From Bacteroidaceae bacterium (GTDB lineage: Bacteria; Bacteroidota; Bacteroidia; Bacteroidales; Bacteroidaceae): 32,848 nucleotides of DNA. How positions within the stretch are numbered: the first letter of the stretch is position 1; each line of letters begins with the position of its first letter. The position numbers were made by a program, and so were the translations under genes. Location: positions 1 to 32,848 of the forward strand of contig JAIKZS010000146.1 of assembly GCA_024682035.1 (NCBI GenBank). Direction: 5' to 3'. The notes below the pieces were generated by a model that worked only from the letters and a program-made list of their open reading frames with translations, was not told the DNA's origin and ran no database searches. Below, in pieces: positions 3,371-28,386 of the stretch.

Positions 3371-5803
3371 ATGAAGGTATTAAAATTTGGTGGTTCATCC
3401 GTAGGAACCACCGCCGGCATTAAAAATGTCAAACAAATTGTAAACAGCCAGCAAGGGCAAGTAATCGTGGTAGTCTCTGCACTGGGAGGTGTAACAGACC
3501 AACTCATCAACACTGCCAAAATGGCTTCTGAAGGCAACAAAGCATACGAAGTGGAACTTGCCAAGTTGACAAACAGACATTATGACCTTATAAATGACAA
3601 TATAATCACAGGCAACAAACGCAACGAACTATTTATTAAAGTTGATAAGCTTTTGGGTGAACTGCGTGATATTTTTCAAGGCATTTATCTCATTAAAGAT
3701 TTAAGCCAAAAAACGAATGATACCATACTCAGTTATGGCGAACGACTCTCAAGCATTATAGTGGCTGAAGTAACAGGTGCAGAATGGAAAGATTCACGCG
3801 AATTTATAAAGACAGAGCGTAAGCAAGGCAAGCACACCCTAAATGCCGACTTAACCAACGCACTTATCAAGGAACAATTCAGCACTCTTCCTGATTTAAC
3901 ATTGATACCTGGTTTTATATCTACCGACATGAGTACGGGTGAGGTTACCAATTTAGGAAGAGGAGGTAGTGACTATACAGCTGCCATTGTAGCTGCAGCA
4001 TTAAATGCCAGTAGTTTGGAAATTTGGACCGATGTGGATGGATTCATGACGGCCGACCCACGTGTTATACATAGCGCCTATACCATCAACAGCCTTACAT
4101 ATGTAGAGGCTACTGAGCTTTGCAACTTTGGAGCCAAAGTAGTGTATCCACCTACCATCTGGCCGGTTTATCACAAAAATATCCCAATTTTAATTAAGAA
4201 TACTTTTAACCCTGATGCGCAAGGTACTGTTATTCGCCAAGGCACTTCTAATGGAACAGGTAAAGCCATCAAAGGTATCAGTAGCATTGATGACACCTGT
4301 CTTATTACTGTCCAAGGTTTAGGTATGGTAGGTGTAATTGGTGTGAACCGTCGTATATTCAGCACGTTGGCTGAACATGGCATCAGCGTTTTTATGGTTA
4401 GTCAAGCATCAAGTGAAAACTCTACTTCCATTGGTGTTCGAACAGCAGATGCCGTATTAGCATGCGAAGTACTCGACAAAGAATTCAGTAAAGAAATAGA
4501 ACTGGGCGAGATGTTCCCCATGAAAGCAGAATATGGTTTAGCTACCATAGCTATTGTAGGAGAGAACATGAAACATACACCAGGTATAGCGGGTAAACTA
4601 TTTGGAGCATTAGGACGAGGTGGTATCAGCGTTATAGCTTGTGCTCAAGGTGCCAGCGAGACTAATATCTCTTTTGTTGTTAACAAAAAACTATTACGTA
4701 AGTCGCTGAATGTTATTCACGATTCATTCTTCCTTTCCGAGTACCAAGTACTGAACCTTTTCATATGCGGTATTGGTACAGTAGGTCATAGCCTCATCAC
4801 TCAAATTGAAAGTCAGCGAGAAAAGCTCATGCGTGAAAACGGATTGCAACTGAACGTTGTGGGCATAGCTAACAGCAAGAAAGGTTTATTCAATCGTGAA
4901 GGCATTACCCTTAAAGACTATAAAAGCGAACTTTTGGAGAAGGGTAAAGATTGTGATTTAAAAATCTTGCTTGACGAAGTAACCGGAATGAACATCTTCA
5001 ATGCAGTGTTTGTAGATTGCACAGCCAATAGCGGTGTAGCTGCCTTGTACGAAAATTTACTGCAACATAATATATCTGTGGTAGCAGCCAATAAGATAGC
5101 AGCATCCTCACCTTACGAAAACTATATGAAATTAAAGCAAACAGCCCATCAACGTGGAGTAAAGTTTCTTTTTGAAACCAACGTAGGTGCAGGTTTGCCA
5201 ATTATCAATACCATCAACGATCTTATACATAGTGGTGATAAGATCTTAAAAATTGAGGCAGTACTGAGTGGAACACTGAACTACATTTTCAATGCACTAA
5301 GTGCAAAAACCTCTATGAGCAAGGCCATAGCTGAAGCCAAGCAGAAAGGTTTTTCTGAACCAGATCCCCGCATAGACCTTAGTGGTACTGATGTTATAAG
5401 GAAATTAGTCATCTTAGGTCGAGAAGCAGGTTATCGTCTTGACCAAGAAGATGTGGAGAAACATTTGTTCATCCCTAACCAACTAATGGAAGGCTCGTTG
5501 GATGACTTCTGGAAGCATATTCCAGAATTAGATGCTGATTTTGAAGCTCGTCGCCAAAAACTTGAAGAACAGCATAAACGTTGGCGCTTTGTGGCGAGGT
5601 TATCAGAGGGCAAAGCGTCTGTTGGTTTGGAGGAGGTAGCTAATAACCATCCTTTCTATGGTTTGGAAAGCAGTAATAACATCATATTGCTAACTACAGA
5701 GCGCTATCATGAATATCCTATGATGATTCAAGGATATGGTGCTGGTGCCAGTGTTACAGCAGCTGGTGTATTTGCAGATATCATGTCGATTGCAAATGTA
5801 TAA
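3371..5803 (+). CDS. thrA: Bifunctional aspartokinase / homoserine dehydrogenase
   Basis: N-terminal MKVLKFGGSSVG aspartokinase motif; ACT region; C-terminal homoserine dehydrogenase (GIGTVGHSL, VAANKIAAS, LSGTLNYIFN). Confidence 0.96.
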   Translation: MKVLKFGGSSVGTTAGIKNVKQIVNSQQGQVIVVVSALGGVTDQLINTAKMASEGNKAYEVELAKLTNRHYDLINDNIITGNKRNELFIKVDKLLGELRDIFQGIYLIKDLSQKTNDTILSYGERLSSIIVAEVTGAEWKDSREFIKTERKQGKHTLNADLTNALIKEQFSTLPDLTLIPGFISTDMSTGEVTNLGRGGSDYTAAIVAAALNASSLEIWTDVDGFMTADPRVIHSAYTINSLTYVEATELCNFGAKVVYPPTIWPVYHKNIPILIKNTFNPDAQGTVIRQGTSNGTGKAIKGISSIDDTCLITVQGLGMVGVIGVNRRIFSTLAEHGISVFMVSQASSENSTSIGVRTADAVLACEVLDKEFSKEIELGEMFPMKAEYGLATIAIVGENMKHTPGIAGKLFGALGRGGISVIACAQGASETNISFVVNKKLLRKSLNVIHDSFFLSEYQVLNLFICGIGTVGHSLITQIESQREKLMRENGLQLNVVGIANSKKGLFNREGITLKDYKSELLEKGKDCDLKILLDEVTGMNIFNAVFVDCTANSGVAALYENLLQHNISVVAANKIAASSPYENYMKLKQTAHQRGVKFLFETNVGAGLPIINTINDLIHSGDKILKIEAVLSGTLNYIFNALSAKTSMSKAIAEAKQKGFSEPDPRIDLSGTDVIRKLVILGREAGYRLDQEDVEKHLFIPNQLMEGSLDDFWKHIPELDADFEARRQKLEEQHKRWRFVARLSEGKASVGLEEVANNHPFYGLESSNNIILLTTERYHEYPMMIQGYGAGASVTAAGVFADIMSIANV

Positions 5804-5856
5804 CCACATTTTGGGCTTACCTTGTAATCTTTCGTACCAATAAAAGAATAATTTAT

Positions 5857-7074
5857 ATGAAGCATATCATACTACTAGGTGACGGCATGGCCGATCATGC
5901 AGTGGAACGACTGGGTGGCAAGACTCTTATGCAATATGCCCATACCCCAGCTATGGACCAACTTGCGAAGATGGGAAGATGTGGCCGACTTCTCACGGTG
6001 CCAGAAGGTTTTAGTCCTGGCTCTGAGGTGGCTAATACCACCATCCTTGGTTACGATATGAACAAGGTATATGAAGGTCGTGGCCCTTTGGAGGCAGCCT
6101 CTATCGGCTATGACATGCAACCATGTGATTTGGCCTTACGCTGCAACATCATCACCCTGGCCGATGGAAAGATAAAGAACCACCACGGCGGACATCTCAC
6201 TACCGAACAAAGTGATGTACTTATTAAATACTTAAACAAGCATTTGGGGAATGAACGAGTGAAGTTTATCACGGGCATTCAGTACCGGCATCTGCTCATT
6301 ATCAAAGATGGCAACAAAGAAGTAGATTGTGCTCCTCCACATGACCATCCCAACGAACCTTGGCAACCTTTATTACCAAAAGCAATGACCCAAAAGAGCG
6401 ATGCTCAAGCGACAGCCAATTTACTTACTGACCTCATCTTAAAATCACAAGAGTTGCTTGTTAAACATCCATTTAACATTGAGCGCCAACAACAAGGCAA
6501 AGATATGGCCAATTCTATTTGGCCTTGGAGCGGAGGCTACCGTCCGCAGATGCAAACCCTCATGGAGATGTATCCACAAATTAAGCGAGGGGATGTCATT
6601 TCTGCCGTTGATCTGATTAGGGGCATTGGAAAATATGCAGGGCTCAATAACATCATTGTCGAAGGAGCTACAGGCATGGCAAATACCAATTACGAAGGTA
6701 AGACCAAAGCTGCTATCGAAGCCTTGAAGCAAGATGACTTTGTTTTCCTACATGTAGAAGCTAGCGATGAAGCTGGTCACGATGGAGACCTTAATTTGAA
6801 ACTACAGACCATCGAAGATTTTGACAAGCGCATTGTAGCACCTATTTATAGCGAGATTAAAAACTGGACAGAACCTGTATGCATAGCCATCTTACCCGAC
6901 CACCCTACCCCCGTAGAGATTCGCACTCATGTGGCAGAACCAGTGCCTTTCCTTATTTGGCATCCTGGCATGAAACCTGACGAAGTTCAGACTTTTAATG
7001 AGGTAAGCTGCGTAAATGGCAGCTACGGCTTGCTGAAGTATCAAGAATTTATGAACGAATTTATGCAAATATGA
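5857..7074 (+). CDS. Cofactor-independent phosphoglycerate mutase-like (ApgM) protein; proposed homoserine kinase
   Basis: MKHIILLGDGMAD metal-binding start, GYDMNKVYEGRGPLEAAS, HVEASDEAGHDGD and ILPDHPTP motifs of the alkaline phosphatase/ApgM superfamily; located between thrA and thrC with a 4-nt overlap with thrC. Confidence 0.9.
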   Translation: MKHIILLGDGMADHAVERLGGKTLMQYAHTPAMDQLAKMGRCGRLLTVPEGFSPGSEVANTTILGYDMNKVYEGRGPLEAASIGYDMQPCDLALRCNIITLADGKIKNHHGGHLTTEQSDVLIKYLNKHLGNERVKFITGIQYRHLLIIKDGNKEVDCAPPHDHPNEPWQPLLPKAMTQKSDAQATANLLTDLILKSQELLVKHPFNIERQQQGKDMANSIWPWSGGYRPQMQTLMEMYPQIKRGDVISAVDLIRGIGKYAGLNNIIVEGATGMANTNYEGKTKAAIEALKQDDFVFLHVEASDEAGHDGDLNLKLQTIEDFDKRIVAPIYSEIKNWTEPVCIAILPDHPTPVEIRTHVAEPVPFLIWHPGMKPDEVQTFNEVSCVNGSYGLLKYQEFMNEFMQI

Positions 7075-8378
7075 AATATTATAGCACTAATCACCAGACT
7101 CCCGATGTTACTCTACAAGAGGCAGTAGTAAAAGGACTTGCTGCCGACAAGGGTTTGTATATGCCAGAGCGCATTCATGCTTTGCCTACCACTTTTTACG
7201 AGCAAATGCCACAAATGAATTTGCAAGAAGTAGCTTTCGAAGTGGCAAAAGCTTTCTTTGGCGAAGACATTCCTGCTGACAAACTGAGGCAGATAGTATT
7301 TGATACCATGAGTTTTGACATCCCTCTGGTGAAGGTAAGCAACAATATTTATTCCTTAGAACTATTTCACGGTCCTACCCTCGCCTTCAAGGATGTGGGT
7401 GCACGTTTTATGGCACGCATGCTGGGCTATTTTGTTGGCAAGCAGCAAAACACAGTTAATGTACTCGTCGCTACATCCGGTGACACCGGTAGTGCTGTAG
7501 CCAACGGTTTCTTAGGAGTAGAAGGCATTCATGTATATGTGCTTTATCCAAAAGGGAAGGTTAGCCTCATCCAGGAGAAGCAGTTTACTACATTGGGAAA
7601 GAACATCACAGCATTAGAAGTTGATGGTACTTTTGATGATTGCCAGCGACTGGTAAAATCAGCATTTATGGATGCTGAGCTGAACGCACACATGAAACTA
7701 ACCAGTGCCAACTCCATCAATGTGGCTCGTTTCCTACCCCAAGCCTTTTATTACTTCTGGGCAATGGCACAATTTGAAAGTAAGAAATATAGCTTAAATA
7801 ATAAGGAAATTGTATGTTGTGTTCCAAGTGGTAACTTTGGCAACATTACTGCAGGCTTATTCGGTAAACGTATGGGCTTACCAATCAAGCGATTCATAGC
7901 TGCTAACAATCAAAATGACATTTTTTACCAGTATCTAAAAACTGGTCAATATAACCCACGGCCAAGCGTCGCAACCATTGCCAATGCCATGGATGTGGGC
8001 GATCCCAGCAACTTTGCCCGTGTACTTGCGCTCTATGACAATAGTCATAAAGCCATTTGCCGAGACATCAAAGGTGCTACATATACTAATGAGGAAATTG
8101 CTGATGAGATTCGACGCGTTTATGAAACCAATGGTTATTTGCTTGACCCTCATGGTGCTTGTGGCCATCGTGCTTTACGTGAAGACTTAGGTCCTAATGA
8201 AACAGGTTTCTTTATAGAGACTGCTCATCCAGCTAAATTCAAGGATACTGTAGAAGGCATCATTGGTAAAGAAATCAACATTCCTCAACGCCTGCAAGAC
8301 TTTATGAAGGGTACGAAGCAAAGCATTGAGATGAGTAGTAGCTTCGAGGACTTAAAAGCGTACTTATTGACAGAGTAA
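7071..8378 (+). CDS. thrC: Threonine synthase
   Basis: MKYYSTNHQTPDVTLQEAVVKGLAADKGLYMPE; PLP-site region HGPTLAFKDVGARFM; ATSGDTGSAVANGF. Confidence 0.96.
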   Translation: MKYYSTNHQTPDVTLQEAVVKGLAADKGLYMPERIHALPTTFYEQMPQMNLQEVAFEVAKAFFGEDIPADKLRQIVFDTMSFDIPLVKVSNNIYSLELFHGPTLAFKDVGARFMARMLGYFVGKQQNTVNVLVATSGDTGSAVANGFLGVEGIHVYVLYPKGKVSLIQEKQFTTLGKNITALEVDGTFDDCQRLVKSAFMDAELNAHMKLTSANSINVARFLPQAFYYFWAMAQFESKKYSLNNKEIVCCVPSGNFGNITAGLFGKRMGLPIKRFIAANNQNDIFYQYLKTGQYNPRPSVATIANAMDVGDPSNFARVLALYDNSHKAICRDIKGATYTNEEIADEIRRVYETNGYLLDPHGACGHRALREDLGPNETGFFIETAHPAKFKDTVEGIIGKEINIPQRLQDFMKGTKQSIEMSSSFEDLKAYLLTE

Positions 8379-12337: not shown

Positions 12338-13160
12338 ATTCTCCTAATATTTTGAGTTCTTTGGTTAATGGAGCAATGGCAGCAATCGACTGTTTATAGC
12401 GCAACATGTTGTCATATACGACATCTATATAGAATTGGTATTCCCACTCACGCCCTATAATGGGCAATGACTGAATTTTCGTAAGGTTAATTTGATAGAA
12501 CGACAAGATGGATAACACCTGCGACAGGCTACCTTCCCTATGAGGCAAGGTAAACACCAAGTTAGCTTTATTGGGATTCAAAGGCTGAGTGCGGTTCAAT
12601 GCATCCACCTGCCAAGGATCGGCCACTACCAAGAAACGAGTAAAGTTATGCTTATTGGTTTCTATGCCCTCTTGCAACACTTTCATGCCATACATTTCGG
12701 CTGCATATTTTGAACAGATGGCTGCATGACCATGCAAGTTATTCTTCTTTATATTTTCTGCACTAAGGGCGGTATCTTCTGTTTCAACGACTTTCATTGA
12801 AGCATGTTGTGAAAGGAAATCACGACATTGCATCAACGCAATGGGATGTGAATTTACCTCCAAAATATTGTCCCAATCGTCGTCTGGTAAACAGACAAAA
12901 CTATGGGATATCCTCAGCTTATGTTCACCAATAATCTGCACACCACTTTGGCGTAGCAACTCATTATTGTGCAACAAGCTTCCTGCAATTGTATTCTCAA
13001 TGGCCAGCATGCCAATTACATGACTATCCTGTTGAATAGCCTTGAACACATCTTCAAAGGTGGTACAACAAATCAGTTCAATTTCCTCTCCCTCGAAATA
13101 CTGATGGGCTGCTATATCATGAAAAGAACCATATCCTCCTTGTATTGCTATTTTCTTCAT
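12312..13160 (-). CDS. pheA: Prephenate dehydratase
   Basis: MKKIAIQGGYGSFHDIAA, GMLAIENTIAGS, TRFLVV motif, and an ACT-domain C-terminus (NLVFTLPHREGSLSQVLSILSFYQINLTKIQSLPI). Confidence 0.95.
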   Translation of the reverse strand: MKKIAIQGGYGSFHDIAAHQYFEGEEIELICCTTFEDVFKAIQQDSHVIGMLAIENTIAGSLLHNNELLRQSGVQIIGEHKLRISHSFVCLPDDDWDNILEVNSHPIALMQCRDFLSQHASMKVVETEDTALSAENIKKNNLHGHAAICSKYAAEMYGMKVLQEGIETNKHNFTRFLVVADPWQVDALNRTQPLNPNKANLVFTLPHREGSLSQVLSILSFYQINLTKIQSLPIIGREWEYQFYIDVVYDNMLRYKQSIAAIAPLTKELKILGEYEEGRSSI

Positions 13161-13174
13161 AACTGGTGTAAATT

Positions 13175-13210
13175 AAAAAGTCCCGCTTCACACAGGATGA
13201 GCGGGACTTT
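13175..13210 (-). terminator. Intrinsic terminator (attenuator) in pheA leader
   Basis: Minus-strand RNA AAAGUCCCGCU-caucctgtgtga(12 nt)-AGCGGGACUUU, 11-bp perfect stem (13177-13210), T-run TTTTT at 13179-13175; ends 15 nt before the pheA ATG. Confidence 0.88.
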
Positions 13211-13280
13211 ATATCTGTTTTATTATTTCATTCTTGGTTCTTAAGCGTCACTGTCACTTGACACATACAAACTCCCGCTC
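13199..13280 (-). promoter_or_regulatory. Candidate antiterminator pairing in pheA leader
   Basis: Minus-strand GAGCGGGA (13280-13273) is perfectly complementary to TCCCGCTC (13206-13199), which overlaps the terminator 5' arm, so the two structures are mutually exclusive. Confidence 0.75.
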
Positions 13281-13340
13281 TAGTTTCTGGCTAAAGTAAA
13301 AGTAATAAAAATGGTATGCAAAAGTGAACAATGCCTTCAT
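13254..13340 (-). CDS. Phe/Tyr-rich leader peptide (28 aa) MKALFTFAYHFYYFYFSQKLEREFVCVK
   Basis: Hand-translated on the minus strand, ATG at 13340-13338, TGA at 13256-13254; 9 of residues 5-16 are Phe/Tyr; upstream of the attenuator and an operon devoted to Phe/Tyr synthesis. Confidence 0.82.
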   Translation of the reverse strand: MKALFTFAYHFYYFYFSQKLEREFVCVK

Positions 13341-13366
13341 TTGTTATAATTTTATTATTTCGGATG

Positions 13367-13374
13367 CAAATGTA
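13367..13374 (-). promoter_or_regulatory. Putative -7 element (TACATTTG) of the Phe/Tyr operon leader transcript
   Basis: Matches TAnnTTTG; a TTTTG lies about 22 nt further upstream, compatible with the Bacteroidetes -33 element; 26 nt upstream of the leader peptide ATG. Confidence 0.5.
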
Positions 13375-13417: not shown

Positions 13418-14374
13418 TCAAAGGTGCATAATATCTATTTCCTTTATGCTGGCTGCTGGGTCAACAATCTCTGTTTTTACCTCACCTGCAGCCTTCAGAT
13501 TAGCTGCAGCTGTAGCATCTTTTGCTGCTCCTTCGGCATCGCCTAAGAGTTTTTTTGCCTCTGCCCGCAGGGCATAAGCTTCACTAAAAACAGGACTCAT
13601 CTCTATTGCATCATTCATTGTACCAATAGCATCTTCTACTCGTTGTTGCTGTATATATAGCTTGCCTAAATTGAGGTAAGCTTGTTGGCAGAAGGGGTCT
13701 ATCTCCAACACTCTCAGATAATCAACCTCTGCTTCGGTGATTTCCTGTTGTGCCTCTTTTACGGCTCCATGTAATAACAACCCGCTCTCCAGTTCGTTTT
13801 CCGATGCTATAACAGCCTCGGCATCTTTAAGCGCTGCTTCTAATTGGCCTTTATGTAAATAGGTCTGCCCTCTGAGTAACAAAGCCTCAGCATAATCAGC
13901 TTGTAGTTCAATAGCTTTTGAAAACAAACTAATAGCTTCACCATCATTGTTCAATGCATTAGCAGCTTTCCCTTTTAGATAATATGCTTGTGGATTGGTG
14001 GGCTCCAGATGAATTGCAAGTTGAGCTTTATCAGCCATTGCGAAATAATCTTCTAAAAGAAAATACACGTTGGCCAAGGTAATATAGTTGGTAACAATGG
14101 TGGGCTCTGATTTCGCCATGTGGAGCAACGGCGTCAATGCGCCTTGCAAATCACCCTTCTCCACTAAAAGCTGTGCTAAATGACCATAAGTTTCATAGTC
14201 ATCCTGTAGCTTGATAGCTTCTTCGAAACATTTCTGCGCATAATCAAAACGACGCATACGATAGGCACGTATGCCATCATATTTCAATATGTCGAACTCT
14301 TTCTGAGCCTTTATTTCTTGTTCCTCAACAGAATTATTTTTCTTAGACTTAAATAACGAACTGAGTAATCCCAT
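13418..14374 (-). CDS. Tetratricopeptide repeat protein
   Basis: Repeated TPR-like motifs (AQKCFEEAIKLQDDYETYGHLAQLL, AISLFSKAIELQADYAEALLLRGQTYL, YLRVLEIDPFCQQAYLNLGKLY). Confidence 0.85.
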   Translation of the reverse strand: MGLLSSLFKSKKNNSVEEQEIKAQKEFDILKYDGIRAYRMRRFDYAQKCFEEAIKLQDDYETYGHLAQLLVEKGDLQGALTPLLHMAKSEPTIVTNYITLANVYFLLEDYFAMADKAQLAIHLEPTNPQAYYLKGKAANALNNDGEAISLFSKAIELQADYAEALLLRGQTYLHKGQLEAALKDAEAVIASENELESGLLLHGAVKEAQQEITEAEVDYLRVLEIDPFCQQAYLNLGKLYIQQQRVEDAIGTMNDAIEMSPVFSEAYALRAEAKKLLGDAEGAAKDATAAANLKAAGEVKTEIVDPAASIKEIDIMHL

Positions 14375-27612: not shown

Positions 27613-28386
27613 CTAGTTATGCTGTTCGTGTTCTTCGACTTCTTTTACTTTTTTGAATAAATCGGAAGCAAAAATAAAATCATTCAATTTTTGATTGGTA
27701 GAAGAAATAACGTCTTTACTAGCACCTCTCCACTCCAAGCTACCTTTATGAATAAAAATAATACTTTCACCAATACCCATCACAGAATTCATATCATGTG
27801 TATTAATAATAGTCGTCATATTATATTCATGCGTTATACTCTGTATTAATTCGTCAATTACGAGTGAAGTTTTTGGGTCAAGACCTGAATTGGGCTCATC
27901 ACAAAAAAGATATTGAGGATTAAGAGCTATAGCACGAGCTATAGCAACACGTTTCTGCATTCCTCCGCTAATCTCGCCGGGGAACTTGTCATGTGCATCA
28001 GTCATAAGATTAACACGTTCCAAACAGAAACGAGCTCGCCGGGTACGCTCGCGCAAAGTGTCATTGCTGAACATATTCAATGGGAACATCACATTCTCTA
28101 ATACAGTCATAGAATCAAATAAAGCGGCACTCTGAAAAATCATACCCATCTCTCGACGAAGCAACTTCTTCTCTTGTTTACCCAAACTAAGGAAATCACG
28201 ACCATCATAAAGCAATTGACCACAATCTGGCGTTAGTAGCCCTACAATACACTTCATCAGTACGGTCTTACCAGATCCACTTTGACCTATAACAAGATTA
28301 GTCTTACCATTTTCAAAGATAGCACTGATATCCTTTAATACATCAAGACCATCAAAAGACTTGCATATGCCTCTCAATTCAATCAT
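27613..28386 (-). CDS. ABC transporter ATP-binding protein (MlaF/Ttg2A-like)
   Basis: [20 protein letters not shown] Walker [39 protein letters not shown] is typical of Mla-type ATPases. Confidence 0.9.

Follow-up and report, generated by a model that had tools for sequence, protein, structure and literature searches.

The DNA analysed here, referred to as the window, comprises 32,848 nt of a contig from a Bacteroidaceae bacterium. Its minus strand carries pheA, encoding prephenate dehydratase (13160-12312; PF00800, E 5.2e-54), a class I/II aminotransferase gene (12337-11132; PF00155, E 7.4e-61), a gene for DAHP synthase fused to chorismate mutase (11125-10058; PF00793 and PF01817), and tyrA, encoding prephenate dehydrogenase (10009-9233; PF02153, E 9.3e-9, with the NCBIfam prephenate dehydrogenase models scoring below cut-off). 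These pheA-aminotransferase-DAHPS/CM-tyrA genes are closely spaced on one strand, and identification of all four by Pfam agreed with the original prediction that the genes downstream of a leader make phenylalanine and tyrosine. A TPR gene (13418-14374) lies upstream of the leader on the same strand. Elsewhere in the window, on the plus strand, an apparent threonine cluster, with genes named from their translations (aspartokinase/homoserine dehydrogenase, phosphoglycerate-mutase-like protein and threonine synthase), spans 3371-8378; only about 70 nt separate it from an upstream ORF of opposite orientation, too little room for a leader of the pheA type.

Architecture of the pheA leader region

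The predicted short ORF rich in Phe and Tyr codons was found letter for letter in the window; it consists of 28 codons on the minus strand (13340-13254), encodes MKALFTFAYHFYYFYFSQKLEREFVCVK*, and contains the run FYYFYF. The promoter-like element proposed just 5' of this ORF, TACATTTG (13374-13367, minus strand), matches the Bacteroides-type -7 box TAnnTTTG, and transcription is expected to start a few nucleotides 3' of it. Because the box sits 5' of the leader ATG, the ORF very likely lies inside the transcript.

The 11-bp terminator hairpin anticipated before pheA was likewise present on the minus strand, with the 5' arm AAAGTCCCGCT at 13210-13200, the 3' arm AGCGGGACTTT at 13187-13177, and a T tail that reaches 13175; the pheA ATG follows 14 nt later, at 13160. 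As for the antiterminator, the 8-bp complementarity proposed between GAGCGGGA (13280-13273), inside the leader ORF, and TCCCGCTC (13206-13199) exists, but its true extent is larger, since 13280-13265 pairs with 13214-13199 as 8+7 bp around a G/G mismatch; the first account had held the first 8 bp alone and had lacked a 1:2 hairpin. Four minus-strand segments can thus be distinguished. Segment 1 (13303-13291), recognized by folding and by a partner-swap test, is formed by the last Phe/Tyr codons and joins 13283-13271 in the 1:2 hairpin, the putative anti-antiterminator. Segment 2 (CUAGAGCGGGAGUUUGUAU, 13283-13265) includes that stretch, and its part 13280-13265 pairs with segment 3 (AUAUAAAGUCCCGCUC, 13214-13199), the 3' arm of the antiterminator, which from 13210 onward is also the terminator 5' arm. 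Segment 4 (AGCGGGACUUU, 13187-13177, with the U tail to 13175) is the terminator 3' arm.

The window leader folded alone adopted the 1:2 and 3:4 (terminator) hairpins, while a fragment spanning segments 2 and 3 folded as the antiterminator at -27.3 kcal/mol, compared with -17.2 kcal/mol for the terminator. Across 46 families the two stabilities were similar, with medians of -16.3 kcal/mol for the terminator and -17.5 kcal/mol for the antiterminator fragment. A further hairpin directly follows segment 2 (GUGUCAAGUGACAGUGACGC, 13264-13245, minus strand); it is well kept in the genus with a stability of only -6.6 kcal/mol, and a polymerase pause site is one guess at its possible role. The post-stop sequence of this stretch, AGUGACAGUGAYGCUUAAG, hardly varies across Bacteroides, and the small hairpin that can form here spans the stop codon.

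Conservation of the aromatic codon run and the competing pairings

Upstream of pheA, an ORF with at least 8 Phe or Tyr residues in 12 was found at 29 of 30 loci of the genus, 64 of 79 of the order and 22 of 40 of the class or phylum; the same criterion yielded approximately none in dinucleotide shuffles and 0 on the opposite strand. The in-frame Phe/Tyr codons expected in relatives are therefore conserved in the genus and the order. A scan of 595,693 nt from named Bacteroides yielded 79 Phe/Tyr-rich ORFs of this kind, every one of them the pheA leader; as these stretches were picked for carrying the leader, the informative point is that no other such ORF occurred. The genus in question is Bacteroides, as the matches in named genomes included B. 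fragilis, B. faecis, B. xylanisolvens, B. cellulosilyticus and many others. One other short Phe/Tyr-rich ORF, probably a product of chance, was observed in the window at 27619 (plus strand), and no second copy of the leader was found elsewhere in the same genome at up to 3 mismatches.

The flanking elements recurred with the ORF. A TAnnTTTG box within 75 nt 5' of the leader ATG was found at 28/28 genus, 52/61 order and 12/22 class loci, compared with 4.8% of shuffles, and in the genus its distance to the ATG is typically about 28 nt. A terminator upstream of pheA was detected at 69 of 79 order loci, against 4-6 in shuffles. One Bacteroides locus (L029, G127:C34) has an intact leader but lacks segment 3, the 5' arm of the terminator, which may reflect either a natural loss, with the operon then constitutive, or an assembly error.

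The composition of the aromatic run follows the codon frame. Over its last nine codons, A occurred 165 times at codon position 2 but 16 and 24 times at positions 1 and 3, and the Leu codons TTA and TTG as well as stop codons were missing from the list of its 20 commonest codons. An element acting purely as RNA would have no need of such a reading-frame signature. Trp codons were present in the leaders of 11 of 46 families, often inside the Phe/Tyr run (L088, L090, L103, L117 and L118, among other loci), so that all three aromatic amino acids may be sensed in some lineages.

Covariation of the antiterminator was examined with 46 sequences, one per family; in each, the terminator 5' arm was matched against the 40 nt that follow the Phe/Tyr run, and the best pairing was scored. 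The 2:3 pairing averaged 21.0 with both arms from their own genome versus 15.1 (sd 0.49) with arms swapped among families, and 0 of 2000 permutations reached the own-genome value, so the competing pairing that had been expected in relatives is indeed conserved and covaries with the terminator. An arm swap within the genus (18.75 versus 18.61) was uninformative because the arms hardly vary there, and the test was therefore moved to one sequence per family. Two control pairings were unexceptional (73/2000 and 380/2000 permutations). As many as 63 distinct 2:3 helices were found among the loci, and across families the arms are replaced wholesale, for example AGCGGGA/TCCCGCT, GGCAGGA/TCCTGCC, GACAGGATTTTGTATG/TATATAGAATCCTGTC, CCGGAGG/CCTCCGG and AGGGCTT/AAGCCCT. 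In one Bacteroides relative (L012), the same substitution appears in all three competing segments (GAGTGGGA / TCCCACTC / AAGTGGGA). The evidence for the 1:2 hairpin is modest: the effect of swapping was small (15.7 for own-genome partners, 14.4 for swapped ones; 1/2000 permutations), and synonymous-codon shuffling revealed only a weak bias of codon choice towards pairing (median rank 0.2-0.3).

The position of segment 2 also fits a stalled ribosome. Its start lies 5-18 nt after the last aromatic codon (median 13, quartiles 11-16; 107 loci, chosen with the start no more than 25 nt after the run, so that the tail is clipped, although few loci fall outside that limit), and 12 nt after it in the window. 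With the last aromatic codon in the A site, the leading edge of a ribosome reaches approximately the start of segment 2, and a stall would thus break segment 1 and leave segment 2 free. The stop codon is placed less regularly, varying by locus between a position shortly 5' of segment 2 and one about 30 nt past the point where segment 2 begins. In Bacteroides it lies 16 nt past the segment 2 core, so that a ribosome terminating there would reach back over no more than the 3' half of segment 2, which is the least tidy part of the model.

Proposed attenuation mechanism and alternative readings

Judged by its sequence, the element is an attenuator, combining a control-codon ORF, an intrinsic terminator, a covarying 2:3 pairing, a 1:2 hairpin, a regular spacing of segment 2 and matching downstream genes, and it is real and probably functional. 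The trp/phe/his-type reading of the original prediction was supported at this level by covariation, spacing, the promoter box and gene content. We consider it very probable that the leader is a ribosome-mediated transcription attenuator that senses both Phe-tRNA and Tyr-tRNA, where the regulatory response, translation and stalling are inferred. In the proposed mechanism, RNA polymerase would start just 5' of the leader ORF and a ribosome would begin the peptide. Under a shortage of charged tRNA-Phe or tRNA-Tyr, the ribosome would stall in FYYFYF and disrupt segment 1; segment 2, 12 nt beyond the stall, would be left free to pair with segment 3, and the antiterminator so formed would block the terminator and allow transcription of pheA through tyrA. 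When both tRNAs are charged, the ribosome would reach the stop codon and cover part of segment 2, and when no ribosome is present, segment 1 would hold it; in either case the 3:4 hairpin would form and transcription would end before pheA.

Other readings of the same features were weighed. The hairpin could be the terminator of the upstream TPR gene, which runs in the same direction and for which the scanned stretch offers no other terminator, and the short ORF a chance frame in AT-rich DNA. However, the promoter box and the ORF sit between the TPR gene and the hairpin, the sequence of the hairpin shifts across families with segment 2 shifting along, and neither the shuffles nor the Bacteroides DNA described above yielded comparable ORFs besides the leader, making this explanation very unlikely. 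We regard as similarly improbable a leader that binds a protein or metabolite (a riboswitch, a T-box or the target of an RNA-binding regulator), in which the binding would control the terminator and the peptide would be incidental. The conservation of the genus DNA past the stop codon, in the post-stop sequence given above, is not required by the peptide alone and would be in keeping with such a leader, but Rfam gave no riboswitch or T-box family match, and the families have in common their Phe/Tyr codons and the logic of the pairings rather than a binding fold.

A functional small protein, with the terminator merely setting basal expression, might be suspected from the C-terminal part of the peptide, VEREFVCVK, whose sequence is kept within the genus. 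This same part, however, encodes segment 2, and in other families it is missing or different, the ORF ending right after the aromatic run; leader length and ends differ between families, and the Phe/Tyr run alone is constant. A small-protein function was accordingly judged extremely improbable. Taken together, the comparative evidence strongly supports a Phe/Tyr leader-peptide attenuator.

Distribution and relation to known systems

Leader and terminator occur together in 38 of the 44 Bacteroidales families examined and in 8 of 21 others; among these 8, f115, f116, f118, f119 and f122 belong to the same class, Bacteroidia. These counts are lower bounds, because the strict Phe/Tyr threshold missed weakly aromatic leaders; real-looking leaders at L091, L092, L093, L098 and L101 were called absent for this reason. 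At 13 loci the leader was present and the scan detected no terminator, and no leader was detectable in five members of the class (L048, L052, L080, L102 and L129). On these distributions, the leader is conserved in most Bacteroidia examined and is apparently ancient in the class.

Outside Bacteroidia the leader is almost absent except with a Bacteroidia-like pheA. Three genomes of other classes (L113, L119 and L131) carry the leader and a pheA unusually near that of the window (41-44% identity). Family-mates of two of them (L142 and L146) have a more distant pheA and no leader, and no leader was found at the other loci examined outside the class (L138-L151). This co-occurrence suggests that operon and leader were transferred together, and horizontal transfer of both is the simplest reading.

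A second candidate attenuator was observed in the window's own genome (L232, contig C48, minus strand, offset 1348-1396), where a His-rich short ORF, MNYTVSHHHHKHPSE, lies directly upstream of the hisG ORF, with a terminator, ATAGAGGCTTACCG / CGGTAAGCCTTTAT, between the two. It is likely a His leader attenuator, so this mode of control would not be isolated in the genome. No trpE was found in the same genome, the assembly of which is incomplete.

If the model holds, the leader provides a control circuit, concrete enough to be tested, for the synthesis of aromatic amino acids in Bacteroidia, a dominant gut class. It deserves an RNA family of its own and, in many genomes, annotation as a small ORF. 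A further implication is regulation that depends on ribosome-polymerase timing in bacteria with unusual promoters; Bacteroidia make little use of Shine-Dalgarno sequences.

As to whether the element had been described before in Bacteroidetes, which the original prediction had left undecided, the answer is in part affirmative. Song et al. (2005; PMC1173090, Table 7, from Merino's attenuator site) listed a putative attenuator before pheA > hisHb > aroAI-beta-aroQ > tyrA in Bacteroides thetaiotaomicron, that is, a terminator/antiterminator predicted upstream of the same operon, in the same gene order and genus. The entry gives a putative attenuator only, without the word "leader" and without control codons, a mechanism or conservation. 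No description of the leader peptide was found in the literature searched; a 2010 comparative survey by Lopatovskaya, Seliverstov and Lyubetsky, which possibly covers the phylum, lay outside this search. Naville and Gautheret (2010; PMC2965389) stated that no leader-peptide system outside Proteobacteria and Actinobacteria was known before their own Firmicutes case. A B. thetaiotaomicron transcriptome paper (PMC7366714) mentioned ORFs reminiscent of leader peptides in general, with pheA and phenylalanine unmentioned, and a Flavobacterium psychrophilum study (PMC9723704), in the parts of it consulted, reported strong clues for leader-peptide attenuation at amino-acid operons, naming no operon there and leaving phenylalanine unmentioned in the main text.

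Among catalogued RNAs, no Rfam family reached threshold in the window leader or in 12 related, divergent loci. The Bacteroid-trp motif (RF01692), a candidate cis-regulatory RNA of Bacteroidetes linked by name to tryptophan synthesis (Weinberg et al. 2010, PMC2864571), concerns different genes; it gave no match to the window at E <= 5 and none in the 12 divergent leaders at the gathering threshold. RF01859 (Phe_leader) scored 23.7 bits (E 0.07) against a gathering threshold of 55 bits. The enterobacterial pheA leader that this family represents (pheL) nevertheless resembles the present one in its control-codon peptide before pheA, its 1:2, 2:3 and 3:4 hairpins and its intrinsic terminator. The two differ in that the control codons here are mixed Phe and Tyr, with Trp in the minority of families noted above, and in that the operon here also carries DAHP synthase/chorismate mutase and tyrA. 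We lean, with some reservation, towards the broader view that this is one two-amino-acid attenuator, ancestral to Bacteroidia and absent from the RNA-family catalogues, by which a shortage of either Phe or Tyr would open the whole operon including DAHP synthase, and which seemingly travelled to other classes with the operon. If so, a single leader would do the work that in enterobacteria is split among separately regulated genes.
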